Source of the DNA: a virus
DNA: 43,970 nt
Strand: one strand, 5' to 3'
IMG/VR virus record: IMGVR_UViG_3300042569_002722
Coordinates: 1 to 43,970 of that record
Shown here: piece after piece, positions 6,915-43,339 of the stretch
Layout of the letters: each line of letters opens with the position of its first letter
Position numbering within the stretch: the first letter of the stretch is position 1
Position numbers and translations under genes: made by a program
The notes under the pieces: model-generated
Seen by the model: the letters and a program-made list of their open reading frames with translations, nothing else
The model's database searches: none
Told to the model about the DNA's origin: nothing

Positions 6915-8368
6915 CAGACGTCAGCCCTGACGATGAGCGCGCCCTCGTCGGCGCCGGCGGCGCCGGGCGAGATGCAGCGGCAGTACCAGGCGCCAGCGTG
7001 AGCGCCCTGGGTGTTGAAGCGCACCACGTTGCCCGGCAGCCAACCAGCGCCCCAGCCTGCAGCCGGCACGGTCATGTAAGGCTGGCTCGTCAGCGGGTTC
7101 AGGGGCACGAAGTTGCTGGCCGTATTTCCTGCCGCGATCTGGCCGTATCGCTCGCTGATCAGGCTGAAGTTGGTGGCCGAGCTGAAGACCAACGCCCAGC
7201 GGTCGGTGATGCCGCCGGCGTTGTTCATGGTGATGGTGCCGGTGTAGCGGGCTGCAAGCGTGGGGCCGGTGGGCGCATCGGCCCAGGTGCGGTTCCACGT
7301 CTGCTGGCTGAAGGGCGCCAGGGTCACGGCCGCCTGCAGGTTGCCAAGGTCGAGCAGCGTGCTGACGCGGCTGCCCGTGGTGTAGGCGTTGGCCAGCGCG
7401 GTGGTGAAGCGCACGACGCCGGTGAGGTAGTTGACCGACTCGATCACCCTTACCTCGGGCTCGGCGCCGTTGGTGGGGTCGTCGATGAGCACCGGCCAGC
7501 CAGGCCAGAAGGCGGGCATCACGCCGCCAAGGTCGTGCACTGTGCGGGCGTGCCAGTTCACCACGCCTGGCGGCTGCCACGCGCCACTGCGCACGATGCC
7601 CGGAGTGGCGCCGCTCGCCCCAACGGGCTGCAGCCGCACTTCCAGCCGATCGAGCGTCACCTCCTGGGCTCCTGCGGATACCCCTGCCGTCAGGTGACCC
7701 GGCGAGCTGAAGCGGATCGGAATCGCCGCGTCCAACACCAGGGCCAAGGGCGGCCCATAGCGGTACACGAACACCGAAGCACCTGCAGGCTGATCGGCCG
7801 GCCCGCTACCCGAGAAGGTCATCGTCCCCGCGGCGCCGTTGACGGCGGTGATGGTGCGCCACGCCAGCTTGCTGGTGGTGGTGAAGAGGCCGATCTTCTC
7901 GCCCACCTTGAACAGGTCGGTGGGGAAGTAGCTCATGCCCGAGAGGCTGCTGCCCCCTGCACTCACCAGCGTGGCCGCGTAGGCCGTCAGGTCCTGCAGG
8001 TAGGTGCTGTCGACGCTCAGCGCGGCATGCCGCAACTGCCGCTGCAGCGCCGGTACAGAGCCCAGGTTCGATGCAGCCATCGCGAAGAGCGAGACGTTCG
8101 CGTCGGCGGCGCGCTGGTACACCGCCACCTGGGCGTTGCTGGCCAGGCTGTTCTCGTTGCTCAGCACGGCGGGGTACACCAGGCGCAGCTGGCGGCGGCC
8201 GGTGGTCAAGTCGGCCGGCATGGCAGCCGGAAACACACTGTTCGCTACGCCAGTGAGCAGCACCGGGCCGACGGCTTGGCCGCCACCAGCCAGGCCAGCG
8301 GCAGTGTCGAGCACGTCGGTCATGCGCTCCGAGCTGAGGAACTTCAGGTCTGCGGCGACGATGGCCAT
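6914..8368 (-). CDS. Tail structural protein
   Basis: 484 residues starting MAIVAADLKFLSSERMTD. The start resembles tail proteins that follow the tape measure in B3/D3112-like siphophages. The body has many beta-rich blocks and segments such as GEKIGLFTTTSKLAWRTITAV and DDPTNGAEPEVRVIES. It lies between the short distal-tail ORF and the hub, so a central tail or distal tail role is likely. No catalytic motif is seen. Confidence 0.75.
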   Translation of the reverse strand: MAIVAADLKFLSSERMTDVLDTAAGLAGGGQAVGPVLLTGVANSVFPAAMPADLTTGRRQLRLVYPAVLSNENSLASNAQVAVYQRAADANVSLFAMAASNLGSVPALQRQLRHAALSVDSTYLQDLTAYAATLVSAGGSSLSGMSYFPTDLFKVGEKIGLFTTTSKLAWRTITAVNGAAGTMTFSGSGPADQPAGASVFVYRYGPPLALVLDAAIPIRFSSPGHLTAGVSAGAQEVTLDRLEVRLQPVGASGATPGIVRSGAWQPPGVVNWHARTVHDLGGVMPAFWPGWPVLIDDPTNGAEPEVRVIESVNYLTGVVRFTTALANAYTTGSRVSTLLDLGNLQAAVTLAPFSQQTWNRTWADAPTGPTLAARYTGTITMNNAGGITDRWALVFSSATNFSLISERYGQIAAGNTASNFVPLNPLTSQPYMTVPAAGWGAGWLPGNVVRFNTQGAHAGAWYCRCISPGAAGADEGALIVRADV

Positions 8369-8371
8369 GGA

Positions 8372-8770
8372 TCACACCTCGAGGAAGCGCAGGCCCAGGC
8401 GGTAGGGGTCGCCGGGCGCGGGGTCGCGGAAGTCGACAACGGGCGTGGCATCGATGGGCCCGGCCTGCTGGTCGAAGATGACGGTGCGCGCAGCCTCGCC
8501 GCGCAGCACCAGGCTGAAGGTCTGCCCGGGCAGCGCGGCCCAGGCCCTGAGCGTGAGCAGGTCGCTGCGCAGGATCCAGGCGGCTCCATCGCTGGTGGCC
8601 AGCTCGATGGGGCGACCGGCCAGGCGCACGGCGCTCTCGACGATGAGCGCACCGGTCAGGCTGTAGCGCGGCGCGCTCATGGCCACGGGCTGCCAGGCGA
8701 ACTCGTTCACCCACAGCAGGTTGAGCGGCAGCGCGAGGGTGGTGCTGGCGTAGGTCAGGGAATGGGACAT
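8372..8770 (-). CDS. Distal-tail-like protein
   Basis: 132 residues of mainly beta strands (YASTTLALPLNLLWVNEF, LIVESAVRLAGRPIELATSDG, LRGEAARTVIFDQQAGPID) ending in DPYRLGLRFLEV. It lies directly after the tape measure gene, where small Dit-like or minor tail proteins are normally found. Assignment rests on position and beta-rich composition. Confidence 0.7.
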   Translation of the reverse strand: MSHSLTYASTTLALPLNLLWVNEFAWQPVAMSAPRYSLTGALIVESAVRLAGRPIELATSDGAAWILRSDLLTLRAWAALPGQTFSLVLRGEAARTVIFDQQAGPIDATPVVDFRDPAPGDPYRLGLRFLEV

Positions 8771-8772
8771 GC

Positions 8773-11700
8773 TCAGCCTCCGGCGTTGCGCTTGGCGGCC
8801 TCGATCACGCGCAGCAGCTCGTCTGCCGAGTCTTCGGCGACAACCAGCGGCACGGTGCTGCCGCCCACGTTGAGGTTCAAGGTGATGACGCGGCCAGTGG
8901 CGGCCGCACCGCCGCCGGTACCGGCGCTGCTGGGCGTGGCGTCGCTGCCGCCGCCCACGACGGTGCTCGAGCTGGGCAGCGTGGCCCCGGCACGGCCACC
9001 GAAGGGCGTGCCAGGGGTGGCCGGCCGCGCAGGGGCGTCGGTGCGCACCCAGATGCCCACGCCCGACACCGGGAGCCCCGCCTGGCCCTCGAACGAGCCG
9101 CTGGTGTACTGGCCCTGCAGGGCCTGCGCCACGCTCACGCCACCGCGCACGCGCTGGTCGGCGATGAAGGTCCAGTTGCCGGCAGCGCGCGGCGTGGGCA
9201 GCTGGAAGCTGCCGGCGGCACGCACGTCGTTCGCGTCGTAGCTGTCGCTGATGCGGTCTGAGCCGCTCCCGCTGGTGGCCGACGATCCGCCACCACTGCC
9301 GCCGCCCTTCCGGCGGCTGCTGACGGTGCGGTCTGCGCCCGAATCCACGATCCCCGCGGCCGAGCTGTTGATCACCTCGCCGAGGTCGTTGAACTCGGTG
9401 CGGAGCTCGCCGAGCCGATCGCGCGTACGGCCCACCGCATCGCTGGCGTCGTCGAAGGCACCGGCCATCGTGCGGCCCGTGCGCTCGGCCTGCAGCTCAA
9501 CGCCCAGCAGCCTGGCCTCGACGGCGAGCTGGCTGCTCACCACGCCGCCATTGGCTGCGATCGCGTCGTCGGCGTAGCGCTTGAAGGCCTGGCGCTTCTG
9601 CGCGAGCGAGAGCGTGGCGTCGTTGCGGATCAGCTCCCAGGCGCGGCGCGAGTCGCTGGCGGTGCGCTGCAGCTCGTCGCGGCTGGTGATGCCGAAGCGC
9701 TTCATGGCCTCGGCGATGCTGTTGACGCCCGAGCGCAGCTCGTCGAGCTTGCCGCGCGCGGCGCTCAGCCCGTCGGCCAGCTGCTCGCCGCTGATCTTGC
9801 CCTGGCTGCCCAGCAGCTTGAGCCGCTCGATGACGGCGGCCACGGCCTGCTCGGTCTTGGCAGCGTCCAGCGCCTTGTCGAGCTGGCCCTCGAGCAGCTG
9901 CCCCGCGCGCTCGCCTGCCACCCCCGCCCGCTCCAGAGCCCCCACCAGCGCGTCGACGTCGTTGATGGCGGTGTTGAAGGCCTCGCTGAAGCCGGTGGCC
10001 AGCTCCTGCACGCTGGTACCGGCACGGCGCAGGGCCTCGCCGTCGATCGCCTGCAGAGCGCTCTGCAGGCGCCTGGCGCCCTGCTCGCTGCTGTCGAAAG
10101 CGGCGCGGGCTTTGGTCTCGAAGATGAGCAGGTCCTGCCCCTGCAGGCCCTTGGCCAGCGCGGCGCTGATCTGGTCGCCAGCGATCACGCCGCGGCGGGC
10201 CAGCGCATCGAGCGCGGCGCCGGCGGCCTGGATGCCGCTGATGCTGTCGAGCTTGAACGAGCCCGCCACCTTGTCGAGCGCGGCGCTGACGCTTTCGCCC
10301 TTGAGCACGAGCTGGTCGAACTCGCCCACCAGGCCCTTGGCCTCTTTGCTGAGGCCGAACACCGATTCGGCTGCCTGCTGCGCCTTGGCTGCCTGCTCTG
10401 CCGTGGCGGCCGCGGCCGCGCGGGTGGACTCCTCCAGGCGGCGCTGGGTCTCCTCGAGCTCGGCGCTGCGATCGCGGAAGCCCAGCAGCTTGGCAGCGCC
10501 TTCGCCGATGGCGGTACCGGCGCTCCTGAAGGCGTCGACGGCCAGGTCGCCGAAGGCCACGACCGCCGTGGCTGCCAGGCCCAGGCCGCCCGTGAGCCGG
10601 CCCAGCAGGCCCACGCGGGCAGCCAGGCCGGTGGTGGCGGCGGTACCGGCCGCCGCAGCGCGGGCCTCAGCCGCGGCCAGCGCGGTGGCGGCGGCCGCGT
10701 TGGCAGCCTTGCCGGCGGTGTTGACGCCCAGCGCGGCGGTGTTGGCAGCGGTGGCAGCGGTGGCAGCCGTGCGCGCGGTGGTCTCGGCCGCCTGCGCCAC
10801 TGCCGATGCCCGGAAGGCCGCCGCCTGGCTGAGCACCAGTGCGCCGAGGTTGAGCGCCTTGTACGCGGCGAAGGCCTGGCCCGCCGTCAGAAGCGCGGTG
10901 GACACCTCGGCGATGTTGTCGGCCAGCAGGTTGATGAGCTCGGCCACCCGCGCGCTGGTGCCGCCGGCCTGGTCGGCCTGGCCGATGTAGCGCGTCCACT
11001 CGGTGCTGAGGTTCTGGATGGCCCGGCCCACAGTGGCCGGCAGCTGCGCGAACTCGCGCTGCAGCGCGGCCTGCTGGCCCTGCAGCGCGCTGATCACCAC
11101 CTGGCTGGTCAGCGCGCCCTGCTCTGCCAGCTTGCGCAGCTCGCCGATGGGCACGCCGAGCCCATCGGCCAGCGCGCGCGCCAGGCGCGGGCTCTGCTCC
11201 AGCACCGAGTTGAACTCTTCGCCGCGCAGCACGCCGCTCTGCAGGCCCTGCACGAGCTGCACGATGGCCGCGCGGGCCGAGTCGGCGCTGCCGCCGCTGA
11301 GCTGGATGGCCTGGTTGATGCTCTCGGTAAGCGACAGCGCATCGCGCTGGCTGAGATTGAGCTCCTTGCCCGCGGTGCTGATGCGGGTGAAGAGGGTGGC
11401 GGTCTCTTCCAGCGCACTGCTGGTGCGCTTGGCGATGTCGAAGACGCCTTCGAAGCCCTGCGTGAAGGCCTCGCCTTCGCCGGTGACCAGGCGGATCCGC
11501 GCGCCCAGGTTGCTGTACTGGTCGGCCACGCGGGCCACGTCGGCCGTGAGCGAGCCAAGCACGCCGCCGCCGATGCCGAGCGCGGCGATGTTCTGCAGGC
11601 CGCGCAGCTGCTCGCCGAGCTGCGAGACGCTCTCGCGCACGGTCGCCTGCGCGCGCACCTGCTGCGCCGCGCTGCTCTGCGCCGCGGCGCCCTGCTGCTG

Positions 11701-14148: not shown

Positions 14149-14403
14149 TCAGGTCTGCGGCAGCTGCTGCTGGGCGTCGCCGCTCGCGGGGGGCGTGCCG
14201 CCGGCTTCCGCCTTGGCCTTGGCCTCGGCTTCCGCCTTGGCTTCGCTGGCCGGCTTGGCCTGGCCCAGAGCGATGAGCTCGTCGGCCACGCTCTGCGGCA
14301 CCGTGAAGGTGCCGCCCGGCTCCACGCGCTTGCCGCCGGCCTTGCAGGGCTCGACGGCCACCACGTCCACCGGCTTGCCGGTGGGCTTGTTGCGGGCCGC
14401 CAT
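14149..14403 (-). CDS. Small head-region protein with Ala/Lys/Glu-rich tail
   Basis: 84 residues starting 2 bp after the capsid stop. The N-terminal half (VDVVAVEPCKAGGKRVEPGG, then VPQSVADELIALGQAK) looks like the small FI-type or head-completion proteins found next to capsid genes. The second half is a low-complexity helix of repeated A-E-A-K. Probably a head decoration or joining component. Confidence 0.65.
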   Translation of the reverse strand: MAARNKPTGKPVDVVAVEPCKAGGKRVEPGGTFTVPQSVADELIALGQAKPASEAKAEAEAKAKAEAGGTPPASGDAQQQLPQT

Positions 14404-23695: not shown

Positions 23696-24103
23696 TCAGC
23701 TGCGGGTGACGCCCGGGCGCACGCGCAGCACGCCGCTGAGGCAGACATCGACATCGCCGGCGGCGTCTTCGACCTCGATGTCGTACTCGTAGACCGAGGC
23801 GGGGTCGGTGAGGGTCTCGCCGCAGGGGATGGCGGCGGTCTGCTCATCGGAGAGCCAGAACTCGACCCAGCCCTCGGTCGGCACGGGCGCGATGCGGGTC
23901 TGGAAGGTCTGCACGACGGCGGTGTCGAGCGCCTTCTTACGGATCTGGCCGCGCACCTGGGCGCCGGTCAGGTCAACCGCGGTGGGCTCGCTTGTGGGCG
24001 TGGCCTTGCGCACCAGGTACTGGCGCACGGGGCGCAGGCTGGCGCCCTGGTGCAGCTCGAGGTCGCGGCGCTCGCCGAGGTTGCTGATCTTGGCCGTGGC
24101 CAT
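23696..24103 (-). CDS. Small head/neck beta protein
   Basis: 135 residues overlapping the portal stop by ATGA. It has a small beta-sandwich pattern (DLELHQGASLRPVRQYLVRK, VDLTGAQVRGQIRKKALDTA, EGWVEFWLSDEQTAAIPCGE, VYEYDIEVEDAAGDVDVCLS) like the BppU- or Dit-type N-terminal domains that anchor fibres. It may link the appendage genes downstream to the neck. Confidence 0.65.
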   Translation of the reverse strand: MATAKISNLGERRDLELHQGASLRPVRQYLVRKATPTSEPTAVDLTGAQVRGQIRKKALDTAVVQTFQTRIAPVPTEGWVEFWLSDEQTAAIPCGETLTDPASVYEYDIEVEDAAGDVDVCLSGVLRVRPGVTRS

Positions 24104-25743
24104 CAGGCGGCTCCAGGCTCGGGCGCGCGGCTGGGCTGCGGCGCCGCGGCCGCGCCGGCGCGCGGGCGCAGGGTGATGTTGCGGGCCGTGAGCAGCGCCT
24201 CGTCGGCGGCGCGCTGCGCCACCGTGGCCTTGAAGTCCTGGCCGAAGAGCTCCCAGCTGCCGCGGGTGTGGGTGGTGAGGCCGCCGTCGATGGCGTCCAG
24301 GAAGGCCGTCACTTCGTCGCGCGGGTTCAGGCTGCCCTGGCTGTCGCCGTGCCACGCGCCGCGGCAGTAGGCCCAGCGCATGCGCGGGTCGGTGAAGAAG
24401 CCCGGCGCGCGGATGCGGCCGCGCGAAACGGCCTCGGCCAGCCACGTCTCCATCACCGGCTGGCAGAAGTCGGCGGCGGTCTGGGTGCGCACGTCGAGCA
24501 GGTGCTTCCAGGCGTCCAGCCAAGCGGCCCGGGCCGCGGTGTAGCTGGTGCTGAACTTCTTGATGATCAGCTCGGGGCCCAGGAAGGTGCCGGCGCCGAG
24601 CTGGTCGAGCACGCTCTGCACGAAGGGGCCGAAGGCCGGGTTCGGGCGGCCGGGGTTGTTGAAGGCCGCGCTCTCGCCCTTGGCCAGGCCGATGACGGCG
24701 CCGGGGCCCATCTCCACCTCGGCGCTGGCGGCCTGCTGGCCGGGGCCTGCGCCCGCGCCGCCGGTGTCGCCCAGGCCGAACACCGGCGCCGGGCCAGTGC
24801 CGCTGTCGGAGGTGATGACCATGGTGAGCCAGGCGCTCACCACGGCGGCCTTCACCTCGGCGTCGGTGTAGTCGCCCAGCAGCTTGAACAGGCCCATCAC
24901 CGGCGCGAGGTAGCTCACGCCGCGCGGCTGCTCGGGCCGCAGGCGCTTGAAGTGATGCAGGATGCGGCGGCGGCCGCTGGCGCCCACCGGCTCCACCCAA
25001 TTGCCGGCGTAGACGCCCGCGCCGGCCGTGGCCACGTGGGCGCCCGGGTGCTGGTTGTAGACGTGCACGCCGGTCACGCGGCCGCTCGCGCCGCGGCGGA
25101 TGCCGCCTGACACCTCGGCCGAGTCGCCCTCGCCTTTGGGGTTGCCGATGCGGTCGGCTTCGAGCACCTGCACGCGTAGCCGGTAGGGTTGGGTGCTGGT
25201 GGCCTCGCCGTCGGGCAGCAGGCTGAAGGCGTCGCCGCTCTCCAGGCGCGCGCGGGTCACCAGGTCCTGCAGCTGGTAGAAGTTCTGGTCGCCGTACCAG
25301 TCGCACTCGGTGCTGTCGGCCCAGAGGCTGAACTCGGAGAACACCTCTTCCGACCAGGCGGTGGCCTCTTCGACCGTCCAGCCCAGGGTGGCCAGGTGCG
25401 GCATGGGCACCCACACCAGGCCGGTGCCGATGGCGCGCGCGACGTTGGTGTTGATGGCGCTGGCGGCGAGCGGGTGGTTGCGCACCAGGTCGCGCGCCTG
25501 GCCGCGCTGCGGGCCGATCTGGCGCAGCGTGTCGGCCGCGGCGCTGCGCGGGCGGGCGAACCAGCGGCCGAGGAAGCTGTCGCCGCCGGCGGTGCTGGTG
25601 TAGCCGCTGGCGTCACCCGCGGCGGCGCTGGTGGCCGGCATGGTGGCCTGCATCACCTCGAGCTTGGCGCGCGCAACGGCACGCTGCAGGGCATGCCGCG
25701 GCGCCACCTGCTCCACCAGGCGGTCGACGAGGTTCCAGCGCAT
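24103..25743 (-). CDS. Portal protein, lambda family
   Basis: 546 residues. Conserved portal features are ARDLVRNHPLAASAINTNVA near 80, DWYGDQNFYQLQDLVTRARL near 150, HHFKRLRPEQPRGVSYLAPV near 270 and AYCRGAWHGDSQGSLNPRDE near 460. These match the lambda-B-like portal group that pairs with GpA-type terminases. The portal forms the dodecameric ring through which DNA enters and leaves. It starts one base before the stop of the gpW-like gene. Confidence 0.92.
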   Translation of the reverse strand: MRWNLVDRLVEQVAPRHALQRAVARAKLEVMQATMPATSAAAGDASGYTSTAGGDSFLGRWFARPRSAAADTLRQIGPQRGQARDLVRNHPLAASAINTNVARAIGTGLVWVPMPHLATLGWTVEEATAWSEEVFSEFSLWADSTECDWYGDQNFYQLQDLVTRARLESGDAFSLLPDGEATSTQPYRLRVQVLEADRIGNPKGEGDSAEVSGGIRRGASGRVTGVHVYNQHPGAHVATAGAGVYAGNWVEPVGASGRRRILHHFKRLRPEQPRGVSYLAPVMGLFKLLGDYTDAEVKAAVVSAWLTMVITSDSGTGPAPVFGLGDTGGAGAGPGQQAASAEVEMGPGAVIGLAKGESAAFNNPGRPNPAFGPFVQSVLDQLGAGTFLGPELIIKKFSTSYTAARAAWLDAWKHLLDVRTQTAADFCQPVMETWLAEAVSRGRIRAPGFFTDPRMRWAYCRGAWHGDSQGSLNPRDEVTAFLDAIDGGLTTHTRGSWELFGQDFKATVAQRAADEALLTARNITLRPRAGAAAAPQPSRAPEPGAA

Positions 25744-25983: not shown

Positions 25984-26766
25984 TCAGCGGCGCGCAGCTG
26001 CGGCGAGCAGGCGCGTGAAGGTGGAGGGGAACTCGCGTTCGGCCACGCGGCGCGCGATGTCTTCGAAGGGCAAGCGCGGGCGGTAGCTCGGCGCCTTGCG
26101 CACGAAGACGAGGATCGGGAGGATCCCGCCGTCTGGCTGGCGGCGGTAGATGCCGGGGGCCATGGCGCCCTTTGTGACGGCGAGCTCGCCGCCGACGATG
26201 GACACCTGATCCAGCCCGCCCACGAAGTAGGGCGCGTTGCGCGCGTTCTTGCGGCTGCGGGCGCTGCTGCTCTTGCGCTGGGCGGGGTCGAAGGTGGTGC
26301 GGGTGGCGGTGAGGATGCGCTGGATCTCACCCCGCTTGAGGTTGCCCTGGGCGGTGAGCAGATTGGCCGGCACGCTGCGGCCCAGCACCGCGCGCTGGCC
26401 CGGGCCCAGCACGCCGGCGTAGCGCAGGTTGCGCTCGAAGCGCTTCTCTTTGCGGCGGCCGCCGTCCACCTGGGGCAGCAGGTAGTCCTCGGGGAGCGTG
26501 CCGTTGTTCGAGCTGCGGTCTTTGACGGCGACGCGGGCCACCAGGCGCTGCACCGAAGCCGGCTCGATGCGCGTGGCGTTGAGGGTGTACGCCGTGGCAC
26601 CGCCCTCGAAGACCTGCGGCATGGTGCGCACGATCTCGCGCTGGGCGCCCTGAGCGATGAAGGTCAGCGCCTTGGCCGTGACGAGCGGCACCTTGGTGCC
26701 CACGAGCGCGCGAATCTCCACCGCTGCCGTGCGGGCGCTGGCGGGTGACTTGCTGACGCTGTACAT
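25984..26766 (-). CDS. Phage structural hypothetical protein upstream of the connector
   Basis: 260 residues from ATG 26766; a TTG six codons upstream is the alternative. The pattern VPLVTAKALTFIAQGAQREIVRTM followed by a basic middle (RRKEKRFERNLRYAGVLGPG) and the end REFPSTFTRLLAAAARR resembles minor virion proteins encoded near portals. The start lies right behind a strong terminator hairpin (26790-26817), so expression may depend on antitermination. Confidence 0.65.
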   Translation of the reverse strand: MYSVSKSPASARTAAVEIRALVGTKVPLVTAKALTFIAQGAQREIVRTMPQVFEGGATAYTLNATRIEPASVQRLVARVAVKDRSSNNGTLPEDYLLPQVDGGRRKEKRFERNLRYAGVLGPGQRAVLGRSVPANLLTAQGNLKRGEIQRILTATRTTFDPAQRKSSSARSRKNARNAPYFVGGLDQVSIVGGELAVTKGAMAPGIYRRQPDGGILPILVFVRKAPSYRPRLPFEDIARRVAEREFPSTFTRLLAAAARR

Positions 26767-26789
26767 GCGCGGACGGGACCCCAAGAAAA

Positions 26790-26817
26790 AGGCCCCAGGG
26801 CTTGCGCCGAGGGGCCT
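26790..26817 (-). terminator. Intrinsic terminator inside the late operon
   Basis: On the minus strand AGGCCCC pairs with GGGGCCT, with an inner GGC/GCC pair block closing a GCAA tetraloop, and is followed by TTTTCTT. It lies 23 bp upstream of the ATG at 26766. There is no space for a promoter between them. Confidence 0.85.
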
Positions 26818-26998
26818 GAATCAGCATTCCTGCTGAGGAGACAACTGCTAGGCGGTCTTTCACGACCTACCTGAATTGAGGCGAATTTTGGGGCGATGTG
26901 TCTCATGGGAGCGAGCAGTTTTTTGTCTCGCGTGGGGGAGACATCGGGGAGCTTGACGAGAGGCGGCGCGGGGCTGTATTCGCGCAGCGGAGGCGGCG

Positions 26999-27058
26999 GC
27001 CTAACTGTCGCTCGAGCTGACACGGCCTGGGGCCGTGCAGCTCAGCTTGGGGTTCGGC
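26999..27058 (+). mobile_element. attC-like integron recombination site B (60 bp)
   Basis: R'' GCCTAAC (26999-27005), short spacer TGTC, then arm GCT-C-GAGCTG-A-CACGGCC. The loop is TGG, and the return arm is GGCCGTG CAGCTC AGC. Spacer TTGGG and R' GTTCGGC (27052-27058) follow. The arms pair perfectly except for one extra C and one extra A, six pairs apart. These are the two extrahelical bases of classical attC sites, in the same place as in the aadA1 attC. Orientation by these bases is plus. The stop of the ORF at 27060 touches this site. Confidence 0.85.
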
Positions 27059-27059
27059 T

Positions 27060-27482
27060 TCAAGGCGCGGGGTGCGCAGCCCTGAACGCCTCGTGCTCGG
27101 CCATCTCGCGGTTGAACATCGCCTGCGCGCCGCCCTCGGCCTTCGCGGCAGCCACGTCGGGCAAGTGCCCGGGGCCTTCCAGCGTGTTCTCGATCCACGC
27201 GATGCCGGCCTCCGGGCCTTGCAGCTTGGCGTCCACCACGGCCGCGCGCATCGCCATCGTCTGCTGGGCCACGATGTCGCCGAACGTGATCGCGCGGCGC
27301 TCGCTCTTGGCGGCCTCGGCATGCAGGCGGTCAACCTCAGCGCCGATCTGGTCCCACAGGTCGGTGGCGGCCTTGTGGTACGCCGCCGTCTGCTCGGCGG
27401 TCTGCTCGAACAGGCCGCCTCCCATGTCGTCGCACGCCTCCGTGTAGCGCGTCACCAGCGCCATCAACTCTGACTTGGTCAT
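27060..27482 (-). CDS. Hypothetical protein carried between two attC-like sites
   Basis: 140 residues. The N-terminal half is helical (MTKSELMALVTRYTEACDDM, AAYHKAATDLWDQIGAEVDR). The second half has GPEAGIAWIENTLEGPGHLP and ends AMFNREMAEHEAFRAAHPAP, a pattern common in phage hypotheticals. AAGGAAGG lies upstream of the ATG. The ORF fills the space between two attC-like sites, reading against the orientation given by their extrahelical bases. No enzyme motif is recognised. Confidence 0.75.
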   Translation of the reverse strand: MTKSELMALVTRYTEACDDMGGGLFEQTAEQTAAYHKAATDLWDQIGAEVDRLHAEAAKSERRAITFGDIVAQQTMAMRAAVVDAKLQGPEAGIAWIENTLEGPGHLPDVAAAKAEGGAQAMFNREMAEHEAFRAAHPAP

Positions 27483-27537
27483 CGTCTGCCTTCCTTGGGC
27501 GCTCGGCCCGTTGTTGAATTCACGCGCTCCGGCTACA

Positions 27538-27623
27538 GCCGAACCCTGCGCTCGAACGGACCGCCTTCGGCAGTCCTTCACCTTGGCACGCCAGCGGGCG
27601 GCCGTTCAGCTTCGTCGTTAGAA
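27538..27623 (+). mobile_element. attC-like integron recombination site A (86 bp)
   Basis: R'' GCCGAAC (27538-27544), spacer CCTGC, then arm GCT-C-GAACGG-A-CCGCC. A 36-base variable top follows, then arm GGCGG CCGTTC AGC, spacer TTCGTC and R' GTTAGAA (27617-27623). The extra C and A sit at the same positions as in site B and in the aadA1 attC. Spacer lengths of 5 and 6 match the classical layout. The fourth base of R'' departs from consensus. The change is matched at the other end of the unit, where site B's R' reads GTTCGGC, the exact complement. Confidence 0.85.
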
Positions 27624-28595
27624 CGGCACGTCACCGTGCACGCGATCAAGGCACTCGGCCGAGACCAGCTGCGCCAGCGCACTGCTGGCAGGCCAGAGCA
27701 GCTTGTTGAAGTGCAGCGCCTGGCGCGCCAGTGCCGAGTGCTGCCGCGCGAGCGCCGTCGCGCCGCGCTTGTTGGCTTTGCTCTGCAGCCGCATGCTGCG
27801 GAAGCGAGTGCCGCTTGCGTCTTCCAGCGCGGCGGTGACCGCCTCATAGGCGGCTTCGACGCCGAAGGGCTCCGGCTTCTGAGCGGCCGACGGCGCCGGG
27901 CGGAAGGCTCCGGCCACGCGGCGGTACTTCTCGGGCGTGTCGTGGCCATCCCAGACCTGCTCGCGATGCGGCAGGGCTTCGAACAGGTGCGCCTGGCTGT
28001 CGTGGAAGTGCCAGCTCACCTGCCCTGTCGGCAGGCCGATGAAGATGCAGCCATGCCAGTCTTCTGACCAGCCCTCGATGGCCGTCTTGGTGACGGCCAC
28101 CGGCAGGCCCATGGCCACGGCCATGCGCGCGATGAGAGCGACGCACTGGTTGCGCTCGAGGTAGGCAGCGTCTTTCTGCTCACGCAGCTGCTGCATCGGA
28201 TCGACGGCGGGTGCGCCCAGCCGCACGACCTTGAAGCGACGATCGTGCTGCCCAGGCCGCCACATTCCGACGTCATCGCGCGTGCAGAAGATGAACCGCG
28301 GCGCCTTGATGAGCTGGTGACCATGGCCCTTGCGCTTGACCTTAACTCGAGGGTTGGTGATCAGCTGCTTGACGGTGTGCGACTCCAGCTGCTCTGGCGT
28401 GGTCTCTTCGACCACGACCGCGGCCGTGTCGTCGTGCAGCAGTCGGTCAAACACCGAAGGCACGGCCAGGTCGGTGCCGTACATCACGGCGTAGCGCCCG
28501 AAGCCGTGCGCAAGGTCGTGCGCGAGCTTGGTCTTGCCGCTGCCCTGCGGGCCAGTGATCACCACGGCTTGGCCGGGCTTGAGCTTAATGTCCAT
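27618..28595 (-). CDS. P-loop NTPase-containing phage protein
   Basis: 325 residues. The N-terminus has a Walker A (VVITGPQGSGKTKLAHDLA, about 12-30) and a short NTPase region with VVVEETTPEQ. The middle carries GWSEDWHGCIFIGLPTGQVSWHF-like sequence and WDGHDTPEKYRRVAGAF, a segment widespread in phage hypotheticals, so two domains seem joined. The C-terminus ends GDVPF, similar to the tip of SSB proteins. Its TAA stop lies inside the R' box of attC-like site A. It may handle phage DNA, but the role is not known. Confidence 0.75.
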   Translation of the reverse strand: MDIKLKPGQAVVITGPQGSGKTKLAHDLAHGFGRYAVMYGTDLAVPSVFDRLLHDDTAAVVVEETTPEQLESHTVKQLITNPRVKVKRKGHGHQLIKAPRFIFCTRDDVGMWRPGQHDRRFKVVRLGAPAVDPMQQLREQKDAAYLERNQCVALIARMAVAMGLPVAVTKTAIEGWSEDWHGCIFIGLPTGQVSWHFHDSQAHLFEALPHREQVWDGHDTPEKYRRVAGAFRPAPSAAQKPEPFGVEAAYEAVTAALEDASGTRFRSMRLQSKANKRGATALARQHSALARQALHFNKLLWPASSALAQLVSAECLDRVHGDVPF

Positions 28596-28620: not shown

Positions 28621-28830
28621 TCAGAACGGCGCTTCCTCTTCCTGCGGCACCTGGCCGTGCAGGTAGCGGCTGGGCATGCGCGTACACAGGCGGCGCGCAA
28701 CGATCTCGGGCGGGGTCGGGAAGGGCCAACCAGGCACGATGACGGCCAGGCGCAGCTGGCCGCCCTGGCTGCCGGCAACCTCGATGGCCTCGCGGCCGTC
28801 GGGGAGCTTCCAGCGGTCGCCTGCGCTCAT
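28621..28830 (-). CDS. Small hypothetical protein
   Basis: 69 residues from ATG 28830. It is a compact beta protein (DRWKLPDGREAIEVAGSQGG, LRLAVIVPGWPFPTPPEIVA) ending in an acidic tail, QEEEAPF. The tail resembles the SSB-type acidic C-terminus and also the end of the neighbouring gene product. It starts 4 bp after the antiterminator-like gene. No family recognised. Confidence 0.7.
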   Translation of the reverse strand: MSAGDRWKLPDGREAIEVAGSQGGQLRLAVIVPGWPFPTPPEIVARRLCTRMPSRYLHGQVPQEEEAPF

Positions 28831-28834
28831 CGGC

Positions 28835-29368
28835 TCAACCCGCTGCAGGCTCGCGCGGCGCCGCATGCGGCAGCCGATCGCGCGCCGCCAGGTTGTCGGC
28901 CAGGATCCGCTCGCTGGCCCTAAAGATCGTGTCGCGGCAGTCGGCCACCAGGCGGTACCAGTGGCTGCGGCTCACGCCGAGCTCGGCCGCGGCGAGCTTG
29001 ATGTTGCGCACGCCGTGCAGGTAGTGCAGCTCGAAGGCCTGGCGGTCCAGCGCCTCGGCCGGCTGCGCCAGGAACGCGAGGTGGAAGGCGGCCAGCTCGG
29101 CGCCCGCGATCGCATCGGGCCCACCGTGCGCGCGGCGGACGCTGCCGCGCGCCTGCAGGCGGCCGAGCAGTGACGGCGGCACCGAGGGCTTGACGTAGAA
29201 GTTGCGCGTGCGCGCCCAGTAGGCCCAGCTGAGCGCGAGCTCGTGCTGGTCGGGGCGCACGGCCTGCAGCTGGCGGTCGGCCTCGGCGGCGTCGTCATCC
29301 GCCGCGGCCTGGCTGTCGGGCGGTGGCGCCGCGGCGGCCAGGCGCAGTGCGTGGTCGGTGTTGGGCAT
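28835..29368 (-). CDS. Antitermination protein Q-like
   Basis: 177 residues. After an acidic linker the pattern LSWAYWARTRNFYVKPSV...LGRLQARG, then AGAELAAFHLAFLAQP, then a terminal HTH (NIKLAAAELGVSRSHWYRLV) resembles phage 82-type Q antiterminators. These load on RNA polymerase near the late promoter so that it ignores terminators. It overlaps the terL stop by ATGA. It lies upstream of three internal terminators in the same operon, which fits this role. A simple HTH regulator is the alternative. Confidence 0.6.
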   Translation of the reverse strand: MPNTDHALRLAAAAPPPDSQAAADDDAAEADRQLQAVRPDQHELALSWAYWARTRNFYVKPSVPPSLLGRLQARGSVRRAHGGPDAIAGAELAAFHLAFLAQPAEALDRQAFELHYLHGVRNIKLAAAELGVSRSHWYRLVADCRDTIFRASERILADNLAARDRLPHAAPREPAAG

Positions 29369-31431
29369 CAGGAGAGTCCTCGTGAAAGCACGCGCCGGCC
29401 CTGGGGTGCGGGCGCGTAGGCGGGCGGGGCTGTTGGCGGTGGCGGTGGCGGCTGTTCCACCGCGGGCACGGTTGCGCCGGGCGTGGCGTCGGGCTGGAAC
29501 ACGCCGGCCGCGGCGGGCGGCGTGGGCTGTTCCAGCGGCGCAGCGTTGATGAACAGGTCGGGCGTGACGTGCGCGGGCACCAGGCGCTCGCGCAGGCGGT
29601 GCCAGTCGGCGGCGCTCCAGCGGTGCAGGCCCAGGTGGTGCGCGAGCGCGAGGTTGTAGACGCTCAGGTCGAGCGGCTCGTTGCGGTCGGCGTGGCTGAA
29701 CTTCTCCCACACGCGCTTGAGGCCGCCGCCGGGCTTGCGCTTGAGCAGCGGGCGCTCGCAGAGCAGGCCCTCGAACCAGCTCTGCTCGAGCGCGGCGCTG
29801 TAGTGCATGGCGCCCCAGCCGCTGGTGAGCTTGAAGCGGTTGAAGAGGTGGTCCTTCGCGACGTCGGTGCCCACCGTCCACAGCAGCACGCCGCCTTCGA
29901 CGCGCTTGCCGTTCCAGTCGATGTCCTGCTTCGTCGGCGTCTGGCCGATGATGGGCCGGTTGGGCCGGCTGCTGCCGTGCATGGCCAGGCAGCCCACGTG
30001 CACGCGGCTGCTGGCGTAGTTGTAGACGTCCTGGGTGTTGCTGCCGCCGGTGTCGATGCCGTAGACGCTGGCCTTCACGAGCACGCCGCTCGCATGCAGC
30101 CACGGCGTGGAGCGGTACTCGTCGAGCTTGCGCCACACGCTGGTGGGCGAGTCAGGGCTTTCGGCCGGGCTGCCCATGAAGACCTGGTAGTCGATCACGG
30201 CGTGCTCGAGGCCTGGGCCCCAGGCCTCGGCCTGGGCTTCGAGGCGGTTGCCCTGGGTGTCAACCGCGATGGTCACGACGAGAGCCCAGTCGGGCAGCTG
30301 GCGGGGCTGCACGCGGGTGCGCTCCATCAGCTCCTGCGCGGACGTCTGCTCGAGCGTGTTCGCCCAGCTGAGGGCCAGGCGCGTGTTGTAGAACACCTGC
30401 ATCGCCTCGGGGCTGCCGCGCTCGAGCAGCTCTCTCGCGCGGGCGTGCTCGCGTGCCAGCTTCAGCCAGGTGATGCTGCCCACGGCGGCGTAGAAGGCGC
30501 TGCAGTGCACGCTGATCGTCTCGCCGTCGCCCTCGCTGCGGGCCTGCCAGTGGGCGGTGCCGCCTTCCTTGGTGCCGCGCAGCATGCGGGCCTTGTGGCG
30601 CTCGTCGATCTCGGCGCCGCACTCGGGGCAGACGAACCAGGCGCGGTGCATGAAGCCGCTGTCGGCGTCGCGCTCGTACCGGAAGTTGCCGACCTCGAGC
30701 TCGTGGTGGTGGCCGCAGTGCGGGCACGGCACCAGGTACACCTCGCGCGTGCCCATGTCGTGCAGCTGGTCGATCTTGCTGCTGCCGGTTTCGCCTGGGC
30801 TGCTGGTGTAGAGGATCTTCGAGTTGTGCTCGAAGGTGGTGGTGCGGGCCTCGGCCAGCATGACGGGGTCGCCTTCGCCGTCCACATCGCGCTCGAGGCG
30901 GTCGATCTCGTCGACGTACACGTAGCGCGCGGGGATCTCGGCCAGGTTGGCCGCGCTGCCGGCGGTGGCGATGTACATGGTGCCGCCCTCGAAGTCTTTC
31001 GCGAAGACGGTGTTGCGGCTGTCGCGGCTGCGCGGGCGGGCGAAGACAGCCTGCAGCTCGGGCACGTCGCGGATCATCTTGCTGATGCGCGCGCTGAGGC
31101 GCTTGGCCAGGCCGTCGGTGGGCTCGAGCACCAGCATGTTGGCCGGCGCCTGCTGTGCGCTTGCGCCCAGCCAGCACAGGGCCACCTGGGTCTTGAACAT
31201 CTGGCTGGCCACCTTGGCCACCACGCGGCGGGCCGGGTGGCGCGGCGACAGCACCTCGAGCAGGCGGCGCGCCATGGGCGTGTGCGCGATGCGGTACTTG
31301 CCGGGCTTGGCGCTTTCCTTCGGCACGACCATGTGGGCCTCGGCCCAGTCGTCGATGCGCAGCTCGGGGTCGGGCTTCGCGCCGCGCAGGGCGGCCTCGG
31401 CCATCAGCGCGTAGCCGTCGGCCAGGTTCAT
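29368..31431 (-). CDS. terL: Terminase large subunit, GpA family
   Basis: 687 residues. The ATPase domain has a Walker A-like VASQMFKTQ (Lys80, Thr81) and Walker B VYVDE (Asp174, Glu175). A zinc-ribbon-like part has CPHC (236-239) and CPEC (268-271). The nuclease domain begins near VTIAVDTQGNRLEAQAEAWG (about 395-415) and ends near HSADWHRLRERLVP. The last 90 residues are Pro-rich. GpA-type terminases usually cut at cos sites. The ATG overlaps the terS stop. Confidence 0.95.
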   Translation of the reverse strand: MNLADGYALMAEAALRGAKPDPELRIDDWAEAHMVVPKESAKPGKYRIAHTPMARRLLEVLSPRHPARRVVAKVASQMFKTQVALCWLGASAQQAPANMLVLEPTDGLAKRLSARISKMIRDVPELQAVFARPRSRDSRNTVFAKDFEGGTMYIATAGSAANLAEIPARYVYVDEIDRLERDVDGEGDPVMLAEARTTTFEHNSKILYTSSPGETGSSKIDQLHDMGTREVYLVPCPHCGHHHELEVGNFRYERDADSGFMHRAWFVCPECGAEIDERHKARMLRGTKEGGTAHWQARSEGDGETISVHCSAFYAAVGSITWLKLAREHARARELLERGSPEAMQVFYNTRLALSWANTLEQTSAQELMERTRVQPRQLPDWALVVTIAVDTQGNRLEAQAEAWGPGLEHAVIDYQVFMGSPAESPDSPTSVWRKLDEYRSTPWLHASGVLVKASVYGIDTGGSNTQDVYNYASSRVHVGCLAMHGSSRPNRPIIGQTPTKQDIDWNGKRVEGGVLLWTVGTDVAKDHLFNRFKLTSGWGAMHYSAALEQSWFEGLLCERPLLKRKPGGGLKRVWEKFSHADRNEPLDLSVYNLALAHHLGLHRWSAADWHRLRERLVPAHVTPDLFINAAPLEQPTPPAAAGVFQPDATPGATVPAVEQPPPPPPTAPPAYAPAPQGRRVLSRGLS

Positions 31432-32056: not shown

Positions 32057-32116
32057 TCGACGGTGCGAGGCCTCGGTGCGGCAGTCAGCCAGTCGCCGAT
32101 CCGCCGCCGGCTGTTC

Positions 32117-32333
32117 CGCCTGTTGCTTTGCTCTTGCGCCGTAAGTCCTTATCGTTACTTGTGTTCCGCCGTTACGCGGGGTGGTGTGCTCTAGGAAGGG
32201 GGAAGGGATCAGACGAGGCGCACCACGCCCCGCACGATGCACGCTGCATGCGGGCGCGCGCGCGTAACGGCGGAACACAAGTAACGACAACCACTTAGCG
32301 CGTAACGACGGCGCAACAGGCGCGCAACAGGCA
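32117..32333. repeat. Long inverted repeat with a 27-bp perfect core
   Basis: The arms 32152-32178 and 32261-32287 are perfect inverse copies (27 bp), starting TCGTTACTTGTG and containing TTCCGCCGTTACGCG. Outside them similarity continues with gaps (TAAGT..TT, TTGCGCCGT, GCCTGTTGC), giving arms of about 60-70 bp. The 82-bp centre holds a second imperfect pair (GGTGGTG / CACCACG). GTAACG recurs several times, and CGCAACAGG is repeated directly at 32312-32332. It lies between the replication gene and terS, so it may be an origin or a packaging site. I see no gene in 31920-32340. Confidence 0.8.
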
Positions 32334-41752: not shown

Positions 41753-41886
41753 TGGTCGCAATTCGTCAATTCCTTCGTCGGCTGCTGTGTCGCCACCAAC
41801 GTGTACGGCTTGTCGCCATCGAGTGGGATGGCACTTCCGTGCACAGGTGCGACGACTGCGGCAAGCTGTTTCGCAGGGGGCTCTGA
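41752..41886 (+). CDS. Tiny zinc-ribbon-like protein
   Basis: 44 residues, below many gene-finder limits. It is basic at the start (RQFLRRLLCRHQRVRL), then HRCDDCGKLFRR with a CxxC pair; Cys13, His15 and the CxxC could bind zinc. It is coupled to both neighbours by one-base overlaps (TGATG), which supports translation. Confidence 0.75.
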   Translation: MVAIRQFLRRLLCRHQRVRLVAIEWDGTSVHRCDDCGKLFRRGL

Positions 41887-42902
41887 TGGCCGAGAACACC
41901 GCCATCGAGTGGGCCGACCACACCTTCAACCCGTGGGTCGGCTGCACCAAGGTCAGCCCGGGCTGCGACCACTGCTATGCCGAGAGCTGGGCCAGGCGCG
42001 CGGGCAAGGCCGCGGGCGTCACTTGGGGCGGCGATCGCCGCCGGACGAGCGACGAGAACTGGGAGAAGCCGCTGCGCTGGAACGCCGAGGCCGAGCGCGA
42101 GGGCCGGCGCTTCCGGGTGTTCTGCGCGAGCCTGGCCGACGTGTTCGACAACCAGGTACCGGCCGAGTGGCGTGAAGACCTGTTCGACTTGATCGCAAAC
42201 ACGCCGCACCTCGACTGGTTGCTGCTTACGAAGCGAATCGGCAACGCCGAGAAGTTGATGCGTGCGGCACTCAAGGACGACGGCCCGGACTGGCCTTGGG
42301 ACAACCTCTGGCTCGGCGTCACCGTCGTCAACCAGGCCGAGGCCGACCGCGACGTGCCGAAGCTGCTGGCCGTGCAGGCGCGCGTGCGGTTCCTCAGCAT
42401 CGAGCCGATGCTGGGGCCGATCGACCTGACCCGAGTGCATGAGCGTCGGCCCGGCGGTATCAGCGCCTGGCATTGCCTGCAGGGCTACTGCCAGAGGCAC
42501 TTTCCGCGCAAGCAGTGCGGATGCGATCGCCAGGAACCAACGATCAACTGGGTCATCTGCGGCGGCGAAAGCGGCCCCGGCGCGCGGCCGATGCACCCAG
42601 ACTGGGCCCGAAGCCTGCGCGACCAGTGTGCCGCGGCCGGCGTGCCCTTCCTGTTCAAGCAGTGGGGCGAGTGGGCTGAGCACGACGCCGGGCCTCCGCC
42701 GCACGCGGTGATGCACATGGACAGCGAGACCGGCCAAGCCTCCGCGAGTGCATGCGATGGCTTCATCAGCAAAGCCGGCGAGTTCGTTCGCGACATGGAT
42801 GACGCGACCACAGACGAGCCCTACCGCGGCATGGTGCGCGTGGGCAAGAAGGCCGCCGGCCGCCAGCTCGACGGCCGCACCCACGACGAGTTCCCCGCAT
42901 GA
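41886..42902 (+). CDS. Phage Gp37/Gp68 (DUF5131) family protein, CxxCY motif
   Basis: 338 residues. The start has the family signature IEWADHTFNPWVGCTKVSPG followed by CDHCYAE; the cysteines resemble a radical-SAM cluster site. Then come FRVFCASLADVFD, LDWLLLTKRI, NLWLGVTVVNQAEADR, RVRFLSIEPMLGP and CGGESGPGARPMHPDWARSL with FLFKQWGEW. All are conserved in this family. Its reaction is not established; a role in nucleic-acid modification or repair is possible. Coupled to the ASCH-domain gene that follows. Confidence 0.9.
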   Translation: MAENTAIEWADHTFNPWVGCTKVSPGCDHCYAESWARRAGKAAGVTWGGDRRRTSDENWEKPLRWNAEAEREGRRFRVFCASLADVFDNQVPAEWREDLFDLIANTPHLDWLLLTKRIGNAEKLMRAALKDDGPDWPWDNLWLGVTVVNQAEADRDVPKLLAVQARVRFLSIEPMLGPIDLTRVHERRPGGISAWHCLQGYCQRHFPRKQCGCDRQEPTINWVICGGESGPGARPMHPDWARSLRDQCAAAGVPFLFKQWGEWAEHDAGPPPHAVMHMDSETGQASASACDGFISKAGEFVRDMDDATTDEPYRGMVRVGKKAAGRQLDGRTHDEFPA

Positions 42903-43339
42903 AGGCCCTCAGCATCCGCCAGCCCTGGGCCTGGCTCGTCGTCAACGGCCACAAGCCCGTCGAGAACCGCACCTGGCCCACCAGCCACCGCGGCGACACG
43001 CTCATCCACGCCGCCCAGGCGTTCGACAGCGACGGCCTGCTCTGGGTGCTGCACAACTTCCCTGAGCTGCGCGGCCAGCTGCCCCAGCAGTACGAGATGG
43101 GCGGCATCGTCGGCCGCGCGCAGCTGATCGCCTGCACGCAGCAGCACCCCTCGCGGTGGTTCGTCGGCCCCTACGGCTTCGTGATGCACGACCCCAAGCC
43201 CATGCCGCTGGTCCGGCACCGCGGCCAGCTCAGCTTCTTCGAGGTGCCGATGTCGCCGGCCCTGCACGCGGCGCTGCAGCGCGCCGGCGCCGCGCCCGCT
43301 GCCGAGGCCGAGGCTGCCGGCCAGAACAGGCTCTTCTGA
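42899..43339 (+). CDS. ASCH-domain protein
   Basis: 146 residues. Starts MKALSIRQPWAWLVVNGHKP, then VENRTW....HRGDTLIHAAQ and GGIVGRAQLIAC, ending the domain with PYGFVMHDP. This is the ASCH fold, a PUA-like RNA- or nucleotide-binding domain (some members act as amidohydrolases on modified nucleosides). An Ala-rich tail follows. ATGA-coupled with the DUF5131 gene upstream, so the two probably act together. Confidence 0.9.
   Translation: MKALSIRQPWAWLVVNGHKPVENRTWPTSHRGDTLIHAAQAFDSDGLLWVLHNFPELRGQLPQQYEMGGIVGRAQLIACTQQHPSRWFVGPYGFVMHDPKPMPLVRHRGQLSFFEVPMSPALHAALQRAGAAPAAEAEAAGQNRLF

Follow-up and report, generated by a model that had tools for sequence, protein, structure and literature searches.

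A reversed gene cassette between attC sites in the packaging operon of a temperate phage suggests a phage version of the integron

Integrons are known as a bacterial device, and the cases described in phages have so far been read as captured bacterial cassettes or integrons. The locus analysed here raises the question whether two hairpins in the packaging genes of a phage are attC sites that bound a gene cassette and, if so, whether this cassette was taken from a bacterial host or belongs to the phages. The window, by which we mean the whole stretch of DNA analysed, comprises the 43,970 bases of an IMG/VR virus record. Its late genes lie on the minus strand: terS and terL (31,928-29,368) are followed by a small conserved gene and a 69-aa gene; then comes a variable stretch, and after it a gpZ-like gene, a 73-aa gene and the portal gene.

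On the right, the variable stretch is flanked by the gene for the terminase large subunit (29368-31431, minus strand; PF05876/PF20454, PHROG 15), which was the query used for finding relatives, and by the small gene after it (28835-29365, minus strand), which is conserved in all relatives; the 69-aa gene (28621-28830, minus strand), common to the prophages L001 and L002, forms the right edge of the variable region. The neighbouring gene for a 325-aa P-loop/DUF5906-like protein (27618-28595, minus strand) is absent from L001 and L002, has its TAA stop inside the R' box of the second attC site and lacks a second bounding attC. Both proteins end in -PF (GDVPF for the 325-aa and EEEAPF for the 69-aa protein; 27618-27620 and 28621-28623, minus strand), endings that recall the C-terminal tail of SSB. 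On the left, the flank comprises a conserved non-coding element (26785-26985, minus strand) defined by an alignment of seven relatives, the minor tail (gpZ-like) gene (25984-26784, minus strand; PHROG 1924 at E 1e-51, and synteny) and the portal protein gene (24103-25743, minus strand; PF05136 at E 2e-81). The element ends in a terminator-like hairpin and bounds the gap on the gpZ side whether the array is present or absent. It contains repeated GAGACA/GTGACA motifs, a conserved CCCCAAAATT...AATTCAGGTAGG block and a GC hairpin with a T-run just before the gpZ gene, and might serve as a late promoter combined with an attenuator or an antitermination leader.

No match to the integron integrase family TIGR02249 was found anywhere in the record, which is possibly incomplete. 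With two attC sites and no intI nearby the locus classifies as a CALIN, an assignment that depends on the completeness of the record, and not as a complete integron, in which an integrase adjoins the array. Domain and PHROG searches of the record bear out the original prediction that the array lies within the packaging block and has no integron integrase nearby. Elsewhere in the window, adjacent DUF5131 and ASCH-like genes lie without attC in the right arm (41886-43339, plus strand), and relatives of these genes are attC-linked in the packaging block, DUF5131 in L002 and ASCH in L128. Two imperfect repeats of ~73 bp (32107-32178 and 32261-32333) between the helicase/primase and terS genes, which are 84% matched across each other in L001, are possibly a packaging or origin site.

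The two structures have the structure of attC sites, and we predict that they are recombined by an integron integrase. Each combines R'' and R' boxes, spacers and an L''/L' stem with two extrahelical bases six pairs apart. In attC-1 (26999-27058, plus strand) the boxes are GCCTAAC (R'', 26999-27005) and GTTCGGC (R', 27052-27058), the crossover G/TT falls at 27052/27053, and L'' reads GCT[C]GAGCTG[A]CACGGCC, with the extrahelical bases in brackets and perfect pairing with L'. In attC-2 (27538-27623, plus strand) the boxes are GCCGAAC (R'', 27538-27544) and GTTAGAA (R', 27617-27623), and L'' reads GCT[C]GAACGG[A]CCGCC, again perfectly paired with L'. Using a covariance model of nine class 1 integron attC sites (resistance cassettes from public plasmids), from which the window sequence was excluded, we found both sites above threshold, attC-2 at 33.4 bits (E 1e-6) and attC-1 at 23.4 bits (E 8e-4), so that the detailed likeness to attC that had been read from the letters is confirmed at both places. 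With filters off, the model had no other matches in the 43,970-base window, and over 100 kb all of its further matches to E=5 were to the same locus in two relatives. An independent box-and-hairpin scanner returned the same two sites alone in 44 kb, with a chance rate at that score of 2 in 100 Markov-shuffled windows (0.02 per window). The covariance model and the bulged bases both assign the attC top strand to the plus strand. None of the viral contigs searched contains an exact copy of an 18-base piece of attC-1.

Hairpins that are intergenic and transcribed, with some genes starting within or beside them, could also have another role in the late transcript, i.e. as a terminator, in RNA processing or in translation control. 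This explanation is barely credible: the boxes, the bulges six pairs apart and the complementarity between box and unit start all match attC, the hairpins lack a T-run, an Rfam search of the window matched zero families, and the same sites lie beside integron integrases in viral contigs.

Judged by its bases, the unit between attC-1 and attC-2 (27053-27617, plus strand) is a real gene cassette. It starts with TTCGGC, continues with a reversed ORF and ends with attC-2 at about the G of its R' box; that is, it has one ORF and one attC within G/TT bounds, and units of this kind are found in more than one array, with break points that coincide with the boxes (window/L323, L002/L299/L301 and window/L001). 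The first bases TTCGGC (27053-27058) are complementary to the unit's own R'' GCCGAAC (27538-27544), including a non-consensus C/G, and not to the R' GTTAGAA of the next unit, as expected of a unit once closed on itself. This pairing, with its shared departure from consensus, was part of the original prediction, and it recurs in an independent second copy of the cassette in the unrelated array of the intI-bearing viral contig L323. That copy shares 79% protein and 83% DNA identity with the window cassette and has the identical unusual TTCGGC/GCCGAAC pair; its attC body is different, and the neighbours beyond G/TT differ (TTAGGC vs TTAGAA in the window). The cassette ORF, here ORF140 (27060-27482, minus strand; 140 aa), matches PHROG 18739 (E 1.6e-11), its protein has weak similarity to the C-terminal domain of Ea22-like phage proteins (tblastn), and its homologues are attC-linked in L051, L056, L080, L097, L135 and L323. 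The earlier count of exactly one ORF between the sites holds; to this we add, as had gone unmentioned, that the ORF lies on the minus strand and is antisense to the attC top strand on the plus strand. The same arrangement is found in L002.

The carrier is a temperate phage with relatives among the prophages of Rubrivivax-group Burkholderiales, and the gap in its packaging operon is permissive. Near-identical terminases are encoded by the MAG prophages L001 (Rubrivivax, 97%) and L002 (92%). L001 keeps attC-1 (29.3 bits; 90%), diverges from the window right after G/TT and has the site flanked by two different genes, an RMF-like gene and one encoding 133 aa; the RMF-like ORF (L001 7629-7922) has half an attC as its N-terminus. 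In L002 there are two more attC sites together with other genes, among them those for HNH and DUF5131 proteins, and its DUF5131 cassette is 88% identical to that of the intI-carrying L299/L301, with the match starting at the R' box; the DUF5131 of L299/L301 has 95% identity to the L002 copy. In L128 (terL 68%) an attC of 22.4 bits at the same spot is followed by an ASCH-like gene, two more stretches are attC-like as judged by eye, and at ~14261-14363 a gene starts inside an attC-like hairpin. Neither the ~200-260 bp gap at the locus in G829 (terL 68%), G500 and G657 nor the unrelated inserts there in G601, G622 and G745 contain attC. L003 and L004, also found by terL alignment, do not usefully cover the locus and were dropped as comparators, and scans of viral contigs with a single protein (terL or ORF140) as query confirmed no relatives. 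The break points that the original prediction placed at the R' boxes are thus met in L001 and, from the R' box onward, in the L002 DUF5131 cassette, and syntenic relatives occur without attC. Taken together, these comparisons show that relatives differ with cassette precision and that one and the same cassette occurs in the arrays of different phages.

Alternatively, the locus might be a dead remnant in which attC-like hairpins, passed down along with old cassettes, are no longer recombined and genes are exchanged by homologous or illegitimate recombination at a moron hot spot. Relatives without attC do have unrelated inserts at this spot, L001 has half an attC inside an ORF, and at the left array end (window 26985, L001 8400), where a clean integrase-type boundary was sought, no G/TT box was found, implying that the array did not arrive there by simple cassette insertion. 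Simple cassette exchange does not predict two cases in which an attC is common to phages without its ORF: L128 shares sites of 93-97% identity with L074 and L057 (L128 13777-13834 and 14256-14362; L074 8312-8369; L057 1308-1414), and the adjoining genes differ. We nevertheless regard a remnant as unlikely because the five sites that the covariance model found in three phages have undamaged stems, bulges and boxes, the break at attC-1 falls at G/TT, L323 has the ORF140 cassette complete with its boxes, and L299/L301 share the DUF5131 cassette with L002 from the box onward.

The ORF of a bacterial cassette is read in the direction of the attC top strand, and the polarity of the window cassette is the reverse of this. 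To place it, IMG/VR was scanned with a half-attC pattern, giving at least 120 loci, most of which were confirmed by the covariance model; read backwards, the pattern is nearly absent in Burkholderiales genomes and is therefore specific. The direction of attC was called by the bulges and the coding strand by a calibrated codon model, used in place of a longest-ORF rule that was dropped as unsafe in high-GC DNA. Applied to 250 pieces of known orientation, the strand caller was right for 147, wrong for 34 and undecided for 69, an error of about 1 in 7 (34/250), and the polarity calls were cross-checked by stop position and homology. By codon model, 92 viral units are reversed and 6 canonical, as against 28 canonical and 1 reversed among bacterial units, mostly found with the same pattern. 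If complete ORFs are required, the ratio of reversed to canonical is 88 to 8 in the viral pattern loci (at least 120 scanned), 34 to 2 in viral intI loci and 1 to 45 in bacteria (Fisher 4e-31), where the controls are mainly Burkholderiales and class 1 integrons, the viral contigs are metagenome predictions and the units are not fully independent. The lone reversed bacterial unit is that of the prophage L002, a member of the window phage's clade. Roughly two thirds of the reversed ORFs stop at most 20 bases from the far box, as cassette genes should; in low-GC contigs, where antisense ORFs are least misleading, 12 units are reversed and 1 is canonical; and the result is the same where homology sets the strand (DNA methyltransferases in L051, L066, L280 and L304, DUF5131 in L299/L301 and the ORF140 family). 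For the window unit alone, codon use decides polarity weakly (64 vs 47), and the call rests on homologues. In the window the attC sites are opposite to the cassette ORF, the ORF runs along the phage operon, and the ORF140 cassette is shared with the intI-bearing array of L323. Reversed cassettes are general in viral contigs and not in bacteria, and the reversed genes found here and in most phage sequences examined suggest that phages have their own version of gene shuffling.

Polarity also bears on the second part of the original prediction, i.e. that phages pick up and spread the cassettes of host integrons. The presence of integron cassettes in a phage is supported; their origin from ordinary bacterial cassettes, picked up from a host chromosomal integron, is distinctly improbable. 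The attC fold is the bacterial one, such capture has been published for Vibrio and Shewanella phages (PMC9892861), where polarity is canonical, and G001, the Rubrivivax MAG that is the host of L001, has an IntI and ~30 chromosomal attC sites (31 by pattern search, one of them the prophage's own). The window ORF is reversed, however, whereas 45 of 46 bacterial units are canonical, and so are all 8 decided chromosomal units of G001, none of which is reversed. In addition, the phage attC sequences are unlike those of the host (GCCTAACCCCTCGCTCAAGCTGACCC vs GCCTAACCGCCGCTCGAGCTGACAC), the cassette genes are of phage type, and the nearest copies of them that the searches gave lie in other viral arrays. 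Because reversal is general in viral contigs and not in bacteria, the cassette looks as if it came from a phage cassette pool and not from the host. The chromosomal integron of G001 lies on contigs C1, C33, C141, C273, C322 and others, and in L005, and on its IntI contig a PHP/DnaE-type polymerase reading frame follows IntI.

Combining these data, we consider it very probable that the window holds a short, integrase-less array of a phage-type integron with inverted cassettes, located in a gap of the packaging operon, with cassettes that would be exchanged by an IntI acting in trans.

Viral integron integrases are consistent with such a system. Three IntI queries identified 225 viral stretches encoding relatives, of which 80 were kept, and the ten viral IntIs tested all pass the NCBI TIGR02249 cut-off (407-477 bits vs 265). 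At 44 viral loci vs 2 attC lies 5' of intI on the opposite strand, and in 14 intI-bearing viral loci all 59 attC matches of the model are opposite to intI, as attC is 5' of intI and on the opposite strand for 15 of 15 bacterial sites. The viral loci therefore have the classical intI/attC geometry, yet their cassette genes read towards intI. The gene order in L280 (terL, array, methyltransferase, intI, portal, protease) places an integron in the same block as the array of the window, and the genes that neighbour intI, or the arrays of array-only contigs, include members of the terminase, portal, tail, DNA polymerase, primase, ParB and phage integrase families. In a quick tree, whose bacterial sample is small and biased, being the best-scoring 30 only, a single supported group unites 57 of 63 viral IntIs with IntI1 and the G001 IntI. 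A single viral IntI clade is not claimed, given these two bacterial members of the viral-rich group and the biased sample. Among 50,697 phage records searched at E 1e-60, IntI was found only in cases of bacterial type that were already known, in a few fragments and in Rctr41k; the known phage integrons M16-3 and Va_p16 are canonical in polarity. Rctr41k (L370, KX853513) was examined as a possible isolated member of the class and excluded, since its attC-like sites are downstream of intI and the genes run with them; at 4680-9434 this virus has an IntI-like gene and, after it, five attC-like sites of ~127 bp with genes in the same direction, a geometry that resembles that of Treponema. Going beyond the single locus, we lean modestly towards a model in which phages own a distinct integron system, comprising a phage IntI group and a shared pool of inverted cassettes that would move from one phage genome to another, with the polarity kept because it would allow expression by the phage and put the recombinogenic attC strand where DNA becomes single-stranded during replication, so that shuffling would accompany phage replication.

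In a phage-type integron of this kind attC sites and integrase would be arranged classically and every cassette gene reversed, so that the genes would be read in the direction of the phage operon and, at loci with an intI, towards that gene. Cassettes would be excised and inserted by IntI via the folded bottom strand of attC. For an array such as that of the window, IntI would be provided in trans, either by the host, for which the G001 IntI is an example, or by another phage; as the record has no intI, the acting integrase is a guess. Expression of the cassette genes would depend on read-through of the phage operon and not on an integron Pc. According to published work, recombination uses the attC bottom strand alone; in chromosomal integrons this strand stays on the leading-strand template, and excision increases greatly when it is transferred to the lagging-strand template (PMC11023631). 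With reversed polarity the recombinogenic bottom strand would be the coding strand, and for genes running with the fork it would be the lagging-strand template, favouring shuffling. By this means phage arrays could be both expressed and prone to shuffling.

The systematic inversion of polarity and the hundreds of viral IntI genes suggest a separate phage branch of integrons with its own gene pool, which includes DNA methyltransferases, DUF5131, Ea22-like, ASCH and RMF-like genes. Through a defined recombinase and defined sites, such a branch would account for some of the mosaicism seen in phage accessory genes, and the inverted arrays provide a direct test of how the strand orientation of attC relative to transcription and replication sets shuffling rates. 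At the same time, the fear that phages freely spread host cassettes would be limited, because a phage-type cassette in a bacterial integron would be antisense to Pc. In a search of the open-access literature, with few subscription papers and without preprints, neither inverted cassette polarity nor viral IntI loci with inverted cassettes were found.

The presence of attC in a phage is itself not new. Phage CALINs and integrons, e.g. in TJE1, P12002L, PH101, Va_90-11-286_p16 and M16-3, were reported in 2023 by Qi, and for several virulent phages the integrase-less attC clusters were active with IntI1 (PMC9892861). Like the window, these CALINs are attC clusters in phage genomes without an integrase; unlike it, the arrays described there as typical have ORFs in the bacterial direction, and reversed cassettes are not mentioned (PMC9892861). 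The sedentary chromosomal integrons of Burkholderiales share with the phage type the attC structure, a TIGR02249 IntI and attC 5' of intI on the opposite strand; their ORFs, however, read with the attC top strand (in G001, 8 of 8 decided), whereas those of the phages are reversed. Class 1 mobile integrons (IntI1; aadA, dfrA, aacA4) have the same R''/L''/L'/R' layout and the same C and A bulges as the window sites, and differ in having a Pc promoter outside the array, canonical ORF polarity and an integrase. Treponema integrons resemble the phage type in that intI and cassette genes are co-directional. In Treponema, however, intI is inverted towards attI (PMC3607928), whereas in the phage type the intI/attC geometry is classical and it is the ORFs that are reversed.
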